A stretch of DNA of 20,023 nt, taken from a virus. Positions within the stretch are counted from its first letter, which is position 1. The number at the start of each line of letters is the position of its first letter. The notes under the pieces were generated by a model. It ran no database searches. It saw only the letters and a list, made by a program, of their open reading frames with translations, and was not told the origin of the DNA. The translations under genes were made by a program, and so were the position numbers. Positions 3,351 through 6,307 of this stretch are shown in pieces. The stretch covers positions 1 through 20,023 of the IMG/VR virus record IMGVR_UViG_3300042385_001830; one strand, 5' to 3'.

Positions 3351-4132
3351 TAACCACCACTGAACTGCCATACGAGCTACCTCCGTACTTATCACCATCT
3401 TCAATATCAACGTATGTTCAATGTCCATTGAAGTACAAGTACTCCAGGGTTAATAAGCTCTCAGAACCACCAACAGAAGCAACGCTGATGGGTAATTTTG
3501 TTCACGATGTCCTTGAGTATTTTTATCTAAATGTTGAACCAGTAAACAGGGGTGTTGCTACATTAAAAAATGTTAGTTCCTCTGTCTGGACAAGTGGAGA
3601 ATGGGAAGAAAAAGTCACTCCGTTTATAAAAGATGGACTGAACACTTTTAGGTGGAACTCCTGGTGGTGTCTTGAAAATATTTTTAAAGTTGAATCACCG
3701 GTTGACGTAATTCCGTCTGGAGTGGAAACTGAACTCAACGGAAGTATTGGCGGTTTCAACATCAAGGGATATATTGATAGGTGGTCAACCATTGATGGGC
3801 TGACAACAATTTCTGATTACAAAACAGGAAAAACTCCAAAAGCTAGATATGTCGGAGACAAATTTACTCAGCTGCTGATTTACGCAATAGTTTTGGCGGA
3901 TACAAAAGATGTCAAAATAGACCTAGTCGAGCTTCTGTACCTAAAAGATGGAACTAAATTTTCTCAAAAATATACAGAAGAAGATGCTGAAAAGGTATCT
4001 AAAATGGTTGAGGATGTTGGAATCAAAATAGGAAATTCTTTTGATGCAAATCAATGGGAAGCAATACCTGCCGTTCTCTGTAACTGGTGTTATTTCAAGC
4101 GAGACCTATGTGAATATTGGAATAAAAAATAA
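3347..4132 (+). CDS. Cas4/RecB-type PD-(D/E)XK exonuclease with Fe-S cysteines
   Basis: This 261-residue protein starts at a GTG overlapping the previous stop (GTGA). It shows the RecB/Cas4 nuclease signature: LSPSSISTYVQCP at the N-terminus, GNFVH with His53, an acidic residue in GYIDRW (Asp144), the core ISDYKTGK (Asp157, Lys159) and QLLIYA, the usual motif QxxxY. Four cysteines, Cys26 and Cys245-x2-Cys248-x6-Cys255, match the [4Fe-4S] arrangement of Cas4 and AddB-type nucleases. No helicase domain is present, so it should act as a stand-alone exonuclease. With the adjoining annealing protein it forms a phage recombination pair. There is no CRISPR array or other cas gene, so a CRISPR adaptation role is unlikely. 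Confidence 0.88.
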   Translation: MITTTELPYELPPYLSPSSISTYVQCPLKYKYSRVNKLSEPPTEATLMGNFVHDVLEYFYLNVEPVNRGVATLKNVSSSVWTSGEWEEKVTPFIKDGLNTFRWNSWWCLENIFKVESPVDVIPSGVETELNGSIGGFNIKGYIDRWSTIDGLTTISDYKTGKTPKARYVGDKFTQLLIYAIVLADTKDVKIDLVELLYLKDGTKFSQKYTEEDAEKVSKMVEDVGIKIGNSFDANQWEAIPAVLCNWCYFKRDLCEYWNKK

Positions 4133-4141
4133 GGAGATTAA

Positions 4142-4681
4142 ATGAATACCGTTTATCACATGATGAGCGATGACGCTTTTGCGCACTTGGTTGCTCAGGA
4201 CATAAAAAACAACGTAAACGATAATCAGCGTCAGTTCTTGCGTGAGTCGCAAAATTTAAAACGCTGGTCTAGGTGTCTTGATGCTCTATTGTCAAACCTT
4301 AATGAGCAGGTAGAAGAAATAGAAGGCGACATGGAGTCTGATACGGAGCAGTATTCTGCACTTGGGGAGGATGGGTCCAAGCTTCTTGCAGAATCAATGC
4401 ATCATTATCTTGGGCAAAAACGCAAGATTGAAAAGTTCAGGGGCCATGTGTTGCGAAAGTTAAATGAAGTAGCCGAGTTTATTTCCATGCCTGAGGATGG
4501 AGTTTCGTCGGAAGATGACATATTGATTATGTGTAGGCAAGCTATAATCAGGCATAGAAAAGAACTAAACGAAAACGATATTGAGCCGACTCCATATGAC
4601 GAGGCTTTGTGGGAAGTTCTAAATGGCCGATGGAATTTTGAAGAAATCGAATACGACGAGGCAAACTTAATTGAGATATAG
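4142..4681 (+). CDS. Acidic helical protein of unknown function
   Basis: This 179-residue protein has a strong AAGGAG ribosome-binding site directly after the nuclease gene. It is predicted mainly helical, with a Glu/Asp-rich central stretch (about residues 55-72), a basic helix near residues 90-105 and an acidic C-terminus. No catalytic motif, membrane segment or known family is recognised. Its place between the recombination nuclease and the HNH gene suggests an accessory DNA-metabolism role, but this is only context. Confidence 0.7.
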   Translation: MNTVYHMMSDDAFAHLVAQDIKNNVNDNQRQFLRESQNLKRWSRCLDALLSNLNEQVEEIEGDMESDTEQYSALGEDGSKLLAESMHHYLGQKRKIEKFRGHVLRKLNEVAEFISMPEDGVSSEDDILIMCRQAIIRHRKELNENDIEPTPYDEALWEVLNGRWNFEEIEYDEANLIEI

Positions 4682-4973
4682 GTCTGCTAAAAAAGAAAAA
4701 GAATATGTCGAGAGGAGAAAGCTCGTCGTTCGACTTCTAGAAGAAAAACCATGGTGCGAAGCATGTCCGGTTTTTGCTGAACACGATGAAAAAAAAATGT
4801 ATAAACGCAATCAATCATCCGACTTGCATGAACTCAAACGACGCTCCCAGGGCGGTTCAATTTTAGATGAAGAAAATATAATTTGCGTTTGCAGACCATG
4901 TCACACGAGAATAGGAAATTATCCCCAACTAGCTTTTGACTTGGGTTTAGCAAAGCATGGCTGGGAAAATTAA
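4671..4973 (+). CDS. HNH endonuclease
   Basis: This 100-residue protein starts at a TTG overlapping the previous gene by 11 bases, with GAGG about nine bases upstream. It has a basic N-terminus followed by a zinc-ribbon HNH fold: Cys29-x2-Cys32, the segment DLHELKRRSQGG with His53, Asn69 in EENII, then Cys74-x2-Cys77 and His78 in CRPCHTRI. HNH enzymes nick or cut DNA using a divalent metal. Small phage HNH proteins often assist the terminase in cohesive-end packaging; they can also be free-standing homing nucleases. Here the gene ends a plus-strand run that includes terL, which slightly favours packaging. It is followed 23 bases later by a strong terminator. Confidence 0.85.
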   Translation: MRYRSAKKEKEYVERRKLVVRLLEEKPWCEACPVFAEHDEKKMYKRNQSSDLHELKRRSQGGSILDEENIICVCRPCHTRIGNYPQLAFDLGLAKHGWEN

Positions 4974-5048: not shown

Positions 5049-5396
5049 TTAGCTCTCAACCGTGAATGCAACTGTCATGTTTGAACCAGCGGTGCTTGAA
5101 CCAACAGCTGAGACATCGAGGCTCACGAGGTCACCTTCAGCGAAGTCGCAGTTGACTGCAGTAAGCGTGCCTGCGTCTGAAGTTCCTGCTGCTGCGATTG
5201 AGAAGGCTGCTGCTACATCAGAACCGACTTTAAGGTCTGCGGTAAGTGCTGAACCTACTGGGGCTGTGGTGACTGCGACGGTAGCGCCAGTGATAACACC
5301 AGCAAACGGCATAGCCATCGTGACGATGCTGCTTGTTGCTAGTCCACCAGGAATTGTTAATGTGATGGTTGTCGGTGCGAGTATTGCTGTTGACAT
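5049..5396 (-). CDS. Small beta-rich protein, probable virion surface (decoration or fibre) protein
   Basis: The ATG at 5396 has an AGGAG site five to six bases upstream, which decides against longer in-frame starts. The 115-residue product is rich in Ala, Thr, Val, Ser and Gly, has very few charged residues and is predicted to be all-beta. The pattern TAPVGSALTADLKVGS followed by FAEGDLVSLDVSAVGSSTAG resembles a beta-sandwich module that I recall from phage fibre, spike and capsid-decoration proteins. There is no signal peptide. It is the only minus-strand gene between two plus-strand blocks, with its own promoter-like element and a shared terminator, so it should be expressed independently. 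That unit structure would suit an abundant structural protein or an acquired gene. The exact virion role is not established. Confidence 0.75.
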   Translation of the reverse strand: MSTAILAPTTITLTIPGGLATSSIVTMAMPFAGVITGATVAVTTAPVGSALTADLKVGSDVAAAFSIAAAGTSDAGTLTAVNCDFAEGDLVSLDVSAVGSSTAGSNMTVAFTVES

Positions 5397-5458: not shown

Positions 5459-5540
5459 GAACTGCACAAAAAATTTGTTTATATTTAACGTTTTTTATAT
5501 TTGGTTTTGGTGTATTGTTGTAATCCTTAGGACCGTTATA

Positions 5541-5769
5541 GGCGCGAGGGCCGGGTGCACGAAGCAAAGTGTGGCACCCGGTTCTTGCGTGTAAACAATT
5601 AATAGAATTCCTATATTTATTACCAGTTTCTATAAATATAGTTTGGTATAAAATTTCCTCATACGACTTAGTGAGGGGGTGGTCCATTTCTAAACGGGAA
5701 ACCGTTGCAAGAAATATCCTTTACTTGGATTTGCCACTGTGGAAAAAAATCACAGTGGCTTCTTGCTTT
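5541..5769 (+). ncRNA. Candidate structured RNA: five tandem hairpins ahead of the RuvC operon
   Basis: Five perfect inverted repeats occur in about 220 bases with no credible gene. H1 pairs 5542-5558 with 5574-5590 (17 bp, four of them G-U with G always on the 5' side). H2 pairs 5611-5620 with 5632-5641 (10 bp, AU-rich). H3 pairs 5657-5661 with 5672-5676 and extends by U-G pairs. H4 pairs 5693-5697 with 5702-5706 and is capped by a GAAA tetraloop. H5 pairs 5733-5741 with 5751-5759 and is followed by a T-rich run. The wobble direction and the GNRA loop point to transcription on the plus strand. It could be an independent small RNA ending at H5 or a cis-acting leader of the plus-strand operon beginning at 5789. 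No clear promoter is seen upstream and no known RNA family is recognised. Confidence 0.5.
5733..5769 (+). terminator. Terminator-like hairpin (H5) just upstream of the RuvC gene
   Basis: A perfect 9-bp stem GCCACTGTG/CACAGTGGC encloses an A-rich 9-base loop (5742-5750) and is followed by TTCTTGCTTT. The T-run is interrupted, so it may be a partial terminator or attenuator. It ends about 20 bases before the GTG start of the next gene. Confidence 0.45.
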
Positions 5770-5788
5770 ATGGTGTAGTTTTAATTAA

Positions 5789-6307
5789 GTGAATAGAAAG
5801 ATAATAGGGCTGGACCTATCGCTTACTTCGACCGGGTGGTCATGCGATGGTGAATACGGTGTCATATCTTCAAAGAATAAAAAAACGCAAAGACTTGTTG
5901 ACATATCAAGCGAAATTTTAGAAAAATGCTCAAAACATCAAGTTGACACTGTCGTAATTGAGGGTTACTCTTTTGCGTCCAGAAGTGGACAGGCCTTCTC
6001 CATAGGTGAGCTTGGCGGGGTTGTTAGATTCTGTTTACTGAAATCCGGTTTTGAGTTCGTAGAGGTTCCACCCACCGTTAGGGCAAAATTTGCAACCGGT
6101 AGGGGTAATGCGGCCAAATCGGAAGTTGTTTCATCCATATCTGCAAAAACGGGAATCGTCTGGAGTGGCCCCGGAGCGGACGATATGTGTGATGCCTGGA
6201 TTTTAGAAGAAATAGGTTTGGTTCACTATGGACAACAGCGGTTTGATTGGCCTAAACTAAACATGTCAGCGCTTGAAAGCCTTGACTGGACACCAACTAC
6301 TAGGTAA
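5789..6307 (+). CDS. RuvC-type Holliday junction resolvase
   Basis: This 172-residue protein has an RNase H-like resolvase core: GLDLSLTSTGW at the N-terminus with Asp9, VVIEGYSF with Glu58, and GADDMCDAWIL with Asp131/132 and Asp135. This acidic constellation and the length fit RuvC-like crossover junction endonucleases, which cut branched DNA before packaging. The start must be the GTG at 5789, since an in-frame TAA directly precedes it and the first catalytic motif begins at residue 7. No Shine-Dalgarno is visible before it, so initiation may be leaderless or depend on the structured upstream region. It is the first gene of a plus-strand run reaching the right edge. Confidence 0.88.
   Translation: MNRKIIGLDLSLTSTGWSCDGEYGVISSKNKKTQRLVDISSEILEKCSKHQVDTVVIEGYSFASRSGQAFSIGELGGVVRFCLLKSGFEFVEVPPTVRAKFATGRGNAAKSEVVSSISAKTGIVWSGPGADDMCDAWILEEIGLVHYGQQRFDWPKLNMSALESLDWTPTTR

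Follow-up and report, generated by a model that had tools for sequence, protein, structure and literature searches.

A gap between two genes in a 20,023-nucleotide (nt) stretch of viral DNA (IMG/VR record IMGVR_UViG_3300042385_001830, positions 1 to 20,023; here called the window) probably encodes two phage small RNAs, RNA A and RNA B, that base pair with host ribosomal RNA (rRNA), at 23S positions 1914-1930 and at the 3′ tail of 16S rRNA, respectively. As judged from sequence comparisons, the 23S target of RNA A is well supported; the 16S-tail target is the weaker part of the proposal because a strong ribosome-binding site (RBS) would yield part of the same signal. The best reading of the comparative data is that these RNAs represent a widespread and undescribed class of phage small RNAs pairing with host rRNA at subunit-interface sites. 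We found nothing relevant on phage RNAs antisense to rRNA in the open-access literature, and an earlier description elsewhere is possible.

The most conserved block of the gap, TAATCCTTAGGACCGTTATAGG, forms no stem. It lies just 5′ of the first of five perfect hairpins in series that an earlier prediction, made from the letters of the window, had described here, and its unpaired part (positions 5525 to 5541) had been overlooked. This part, which we call the tag, is complementary to 23S rRNA. The elements of RNA A are as follows.

5513-5518, plus strand: putative −10 element TATTGT (consensus TANNNT, from aligned relatives), placing +1 at about 5525.
5525-5592, plus strand: small RNA A, probable extent (5′ antisense tag plus hairpin), from conservation and fold.
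5525-5541, plus strand: 23S-complementary 5′ segment CCTTAGGACCGTTATAG, the exact reverse complement of Escherichia coli 23S 1914-1930.
5542-5590 (5542-5558 pairing with 5574-5590), plus strand: 17-bp hairpin of RNA A, supported by covariation, with four G-U pairs on the plus strand.

The tag CCTTAGGACCGTTATAG is nearly invariant within family A (about 85 tag loci, always lying between an HNH and a RuvC gene where these are visible) and is unpaired when RNA A is folded alone. Its target, which we take to be the loop and 3′ strand of helix 69 plus the strand into helix 71 in the subunit-bridge region, is near-universal in the Rfam bacterial large-subunit consensus. By our own calculation, a 400-nt gap would match 23S rRNA over 17 nt with a probability of about 1e-4, conservation not yet counted. 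The tag begins 7 nt after the conserved TANNNT, and aligned relatives have TATTGT, TAAACT, TACACT, TACTCT, TAGAAT, TAATGT or TATCGT at a constant distance from the antisense block. No consensus −35 element was found at a spacing of 16 to 18 nt; many relatives share a conserved CTTTCAGTATT about 22 nt upstream. The adjoining hairpin covaries strongly: among 22 distinct homologues, 11 of its 17 pairs are altered on both sides and 98.4% of cells pair (0 of 500 shuffles). We define the class by an unpaired complement of at least 17 nt within 23S 1906-1980, combined with a stable hairpin, either an own promoter or a place in a 3′ untranslated region (3′UTR), and physical binding to the 23S rRNA of infected cells. 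RNA A has such a complement and such a hairpin, and its promoter is predicted from sequence. We rejected the idea that the choice of A or G in the tag follows the base at position 1923 of the host 23S rRNA: an exact C1923 occurs in just 5 of 84,980 bacterial and archaeal genomes, and a G-U pair is therefore the simpler reading.

The 23S complement recurs well beyond the window. A search of viral contigs with the tag as a 17-mer with two degenerate positions gave at least 119 matches, versus 24 for a scrambled control of the same degeneracy and 5 for another universal 23S antisense 17-mer. A second group, separate from family A and comprising 11 matches plus L149 and L161, occurs in T4-like phages far from RuvC; its flanking hairpins differ while the tag is fixed, and in L149 the complement to 23S reaches 28 nt with one G-U. 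Complementarity was extended by at least 3 nt in 9 of 14 further lineages (expected, 5% each; P = 3.6e-9). Nine lineages, collected in several scans, carry the tag on the coding strand 7 to 33 nt past a stop codon, mostly followed by a terminator-like hairpin; judging by the look of their proteins, the genes upstream of these 3′UTR tags include those for major capsid protein and ribonucleotide reductase. Scans of the neighboring 23S segment yielded further long or split antisense, to 23S 1920-1977, in L265 (34 nt, about 510-565), L258 (split 13 + 23 nt with a hairpin between, about 3640-3740) and L263 (24 nt within a terminator-like hairpin beside a tRNA gene; reverse strand, about 2090-2170). 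Three control 53-nt regions of 23S gave 0, 1 and 1 non-rRNA matches. Lone 17-mer matches lacking any extension (L090, L166 and L177) were set aside as being at chance level.

Three loci, L083 (2624-2640), L146 (minus orientation, about 2952) and L111, have 22- to 25-nt identities to 23S 1912-1936 with the neighboring genes on the sense-23S strand, so that they might mimic rRNA instead of being antisense to it.

All five predicted stems were found at the positions given for them. The 5500-5800 region folds at −101 kcal/mol, versus −70.6 ± 5.1 kcal/mol for shuffled sequence (z, −6.0; 0 of 100 shuffles as low), and the strand called by the original prediction also held, with z scores for 5525-5592 of −3.9 on the plus strand and −1.8 on the minus strand. 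No Rfam 15 family scored above its gathering threshold for the gap RNA (the best, RsaF, reached 17.4 bits against a threshold of 60). Covariation, conservation and this lack of an Rfam family support the prediction of an unannotated, functional, structured plus-strand RNA. What did not survive is its unity. RuvC as the query recruited 80 viral loci for comparison. Among relatives, the five hairpins resolve into two units, each found without the other: unit A occurs without unit B in L065, L077, L100 and L104, where RuvC follows 74 to 118 nt past the motif, and unit B stands alone between HNH and RuvC in L015, L026, L033, L049 and L053. We infer that the gap holds two separate small-RNA genes, each with its own TANNNT-type −10 element; a generic sigma-70 scan found no promoter. 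RNA B comprises the following elements.

5647-5654, plus strand: −10-like element TATAAAAT, with counterpart elements in relatives.
5657-5768, plus strand: small RNA B, probable extent (fold z, −5.0; covariation in relatives).
5657-5661 pairing with 5672-5676, plus strand: hairpin 3, CCTCA/TGAGG, stem present.
5672-5686, plus strand: 16S-tail complement TGAGGGGGTGGTCCA, with 15 contiguous pairs (including G-U) to the 16S 3′ tail UGGAUCACCUCCUUA (anti-Shine-Dalgarno), from duplex energy.
5693-5706, plus strand: GAAA-loop hairpin, AACGG-GAAA-CCGTT, with double changes in the counterpart hairpin of relatives.
5707-5713 pairing with 5760-5766, plus strand: closing stem GCAAGAA/TTCTTGC around the terminator-like hairpin, from the fold.
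5733-5759, plus strand: terminator-like hairpin GCCACTGTG/CACAGTGGC, stem present.

Relatives carry TACTCT, TAACCT, TATGAT, TAATCT or TACAAT at the place of the RNA B −10 element. In relatives, the 5′ end of RNA B pairs with the loop of its own terminator-like hairpin, forming a pseudoknot, and covariation supports both the pseudoknot and the terminator stem. The duplex of RNA B with the 16S tail has an energy of −25.5 kcal/mol in the window, equaled by 0 of 200 and 0 of 300 shuffles. Every RNA B lineage has a 12- to 15-bp match to the 16S tail at the same place, if a single-base bulge is allowed, and all RNA B relatives keep the core GGTGRTC. Across all lineages tested, 0 to 17 of 300 shuffles did as well, with 6 of 9 lineages besides the window at 1 of 300 or fewer. 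The longest contiguous pairing of RNA B to whole 16S or 23S rRNA was often not significant; the 16S-tail claim is based on a site specified a priori and on duplex energies instead. Viral contigs were also searched for the 16S-tail antisense in the form of a general 16-mer, a lead that was dropped because its matches looked like coding sequence or chance.

Antisense to 23S 1907-1980 is also present in cultured phages, namely, Vibrio phages such as qdvp001 (22 of 24 positions complementary, both differences being G-U compatible), Staphylococcus phages SpP and DH5, Arcanobacterium phage TPWB06, Jilinvirus phages of E. coli, Enterobacter and Salmonella, Klebsiella phage KA2-1, Hafnia phage TS33 and Pantoea phage AH01. 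The complement in the E. coli, Enterobacter, Klebsiella and Hafnia phages targets the adjacent helix 70/71. In the Jilinvirus phages, KA2-1, TS33 and AH01, a single RNA carries the 23S antisense followed by the 16S complement, and the window would thus split over two RNAs what Jilinvirus-type phages keep on one. Versions of the RNA are available in cultured E. coli phages ECO1230-10 and HeidiAbel_Bas97. The wider proposition, for and against which we see the case as evenly balanced, is that many unrelated phage groups attack or reprogram the host ribosome via RNAs that pair with the 16S 3′ tail and 23S helices 69 to 71, encoded as one RNA (Jilinvirus and L015 types) or as two adjacent genes (the window). 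Unit B of L015, L026 and L053 itself contains AACTCGACAAGG, which complements 23S 1941-1951 with G-U-compatible changes only and lies directly 5′ of the 16S-tail complement.

In the mechanism that we propose, RNA A would start at about 5525, present its unpaired 17-nt tag for pairing with 23S 1914-1930 and end in its stable hairpin, while a 12- to 15-nt stretch of RNA B would pair with the single-stranded anti-Shine-Dalgarno tail of 16S rRNA. Both RNAs would be transcribed during infection, and their binding partners would be free 50S and 30S subunits or intermediates of assembly. Helices 69 and 71 bridge to the small subunit, and only free 50S subunits and their precursors leave them exposed. 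A synthetic peptide nucleic acid (PNA) directed against 23S helix 69 inhibits the growth of E. coli (Kulik et al. 2017, in the account given in PMC7038079). Given this bridge role and the growth inhibition by the PNA, the likeliest effect of binding would be to hamper subunit joining, initiation or the maturation of 50S subunits, by which host translation may be tuned or shut off.

Several observations weigh against this proposal. Helix 69 is buried in the 70S ribosome, so that binding would be confined to free 50S subunits or precursors. The structural genes of the window use Shine-Dalgarno sequences, and a general block of initiation would therefore hit the phage too. The 16S match overlaps the expected look of a strong RBS, and the pairing is weakly significant in L009, L041 and L036. 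At L083, L111 and L146, the long 23S matches sit where the neighboring genes run the opposite way; leaving out these three opposite-strand lineages reduces the count of extended matches to 6 of 11 (about 6e-6, calculated by hand).

The alternative to which we give the most room, as a real possibility that we lean against, concerns RNA B: its 16S complement might be the strong RBS of a tiny leader open reading frame (ORF), or be kept for the structure of the RNA itself, with only RNA A contacting rRNA. RNA B does have a Shine-Dalgarno-like stretch beside a GTG, hairpin 3 could sequester GAGGGGG in the window, and several relatives have only 7 to 10 contiguous pairs. However, the 12- to 15-bp pairing runs through and beyond the would-be start codon and, with the single-base bulge, is kept in every lineage, and unrelated phages place the 16S complement next to 23S antisense on one RNA. 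The same stretch and GTG, the terminator-like hairpins and the invariable position of the RNAs directly upstream of RuvC in the phage family of the window would suit RNAs that act in cis on the RuvC operon, as attenuators or as a leader, the latter being what the original prediction had suggested. We hold this to be improbable. RuvC has its own TAGNNT, 6 to 7 nt ahead of the start codon, in every lineage that bears the RNAs, and RNA B finishes with a terminator-like hairpin. Either unit can be present without the other, the micro-ORFs that follow the B motif (MVHF, MIRSGG and others) show no conservation, and the 23S tag is also found in phages where it is not close to RuvC.

That last observation also bears on the possibility that RNA A guides a split nuclease, made up of HNH and RuvC as in IscB or Cas9, to the 23S genes of the host, so that every rrn operon is cut. 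The constant place of RNA A between HNH and RuvC in family A, its guide-like 5′ end followed by a hairpin, the absence from the RNA A locus of the bases flanking the 23S site, and a weak match of the HNH protein to the IscB HNH region (NF040563; E value of 0.0076, far below the cutoff) all fit such a guide. But the tag is found in phages with neither RuvC nor HNH nearby, and both profile and fold mark RuvC as a canonical resolvase, with bacterial RuvC resolvases as its best matches, no IscB or Cas9 among the best fold matches listed and Cas12f only at rank 26. Moreover, in the relatives L016 and L027, HNH adjoins RuvC with no RNA between, and in several lineages, which have terminator-like hairpins, all departures from an exact complement are G-U compatible. 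We accordingly dropped this explanation as very improbable. Least probable of all is that the 23S match is a DNA-level feature, such as an attachment or homing-endonuclease site. The 23S segment 1914-1936 presumably overlaps the I-CeuI recognition sequence, and the related RNA of Jilinvirus phages adjoins an integrase gene; yet TS33 and AH01 carry the RNA with no adjacent integrase, the promoter spacing is conserved, the hairpin covaries on one strand, the 3′UTR tags lie on the coding strand in nine of nine cases, and the family A RNA motif has no copy in the 84,980 bacterial and archaeal genomes.

The remaining features of the region are its neighboring genes and one further repeat.

4671-4973, plus strand: HNH endonuclease gene upstream of RNA A, encoding a 100-aa protein.
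5611-5620 pairing with 5632-5641, plus strand: AT-rich 10-bp inverted repeat CTATATTTAT/ATAAATATAG upstream of RNA B, stem present.
5776-5781, plus strand: putative −10 element TAGTTT right before the RuvC start codon, TAGNNT in relatives.
5789-6307, plus strand: RuvC-type Holliday junction resolvase gene, 172 aa, separate from the RNAs (PF02075; NF000711, 6.5e-11; predicted fold, RuvC).

HNH lies upstream of RNA A in 80 of the 81 testable family A loci, and RuvC lies downstream in 79 of 79. The inverted repeat is not kept in more distant relatives. The RuvC start codon (GTG or ATG) has no Shine-Dalgarno sequence in any RNA-bearing lineage, and RuvC looks leaderless throughout these lineages of the family. 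The structural genes of the window carry ordinary Shine-Dalgarno sequences; RuvC alone looks leaderless, and we thus rejected the idea that the mRNAs of the phage evade a Shine-Dalgarno block by being leaderless. Inside the RuvC coding sequence, positions 6239 to 6253 are an exact 15-nt antisense to 23S 783-797 (about 0.05 expected by chance window-wide). Between HNH and RNA A, and divergently transcribed (5049-5396, minus strand), lies a gene for a 115-aa Ala/Thr/Val-rich protein that has no Pfam, PHROG or NCBIfam match and is possibly a decoration or fiber protein. The terminase of the window is nearest to those of Gordonia phages (42%), and the host is likely actinobacterial.

Phage takeover of translation is usually viewed through proteins, tRNAs and mRNA features. 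If our proposal is true, a recurrent class of RNAs antisense to the ribosomal subunit interface would give phages a new means of takeover, would account for conserved noncoding gaps in many phages and would point to natural antisense inhibitors of a site already targeted by synthetic antisense antibacterials. The helix 69 PNA is, like RNA A, antisense to 23S helix 69; unlike RNA A, it is a synthetic oligomer with neither a hairpin nor a gene.

IscB/IsrB with omega RNA, Cas9 and TIGR-Tas (PMC12045711) resemble the window in that genes for HNH and RuvC adjoin a structured RNA whose 5′ end is guide-like. Unlike these systems, the window encodes a canonical 172-aa RuvC resolvase and a separate 100-aa HNH protein, and the tag occurs elsewhere with neither; nor does the window RNA have an Rfam match to HEARO. 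GOLLD, ROOL, OLE and further Rfam RNAs of phages or bacteria are likewise structured and noncoding, whereas the window RNAs are far smaller and match no Rfam family at any useful threshold. The box C/D and H/ACA guides of archaea and eukaryotes are antisense to functional rRNA sites, helix 69 included; bacteria, to our knowledge, lack such guide systems, and unlike those guides, RNAs A and B show no such boxes and have no modification enzyme nearby. A similar layout is seen in the base-pairing small RNAs that phages are known to direct at mRNAs, which are also short and combine an unpaired antisense segment with a terminator-like hairpin. Those RNAs target mRNA, whereas the target proposed for RNAs A and B is rRNA, at a universally conserved site.
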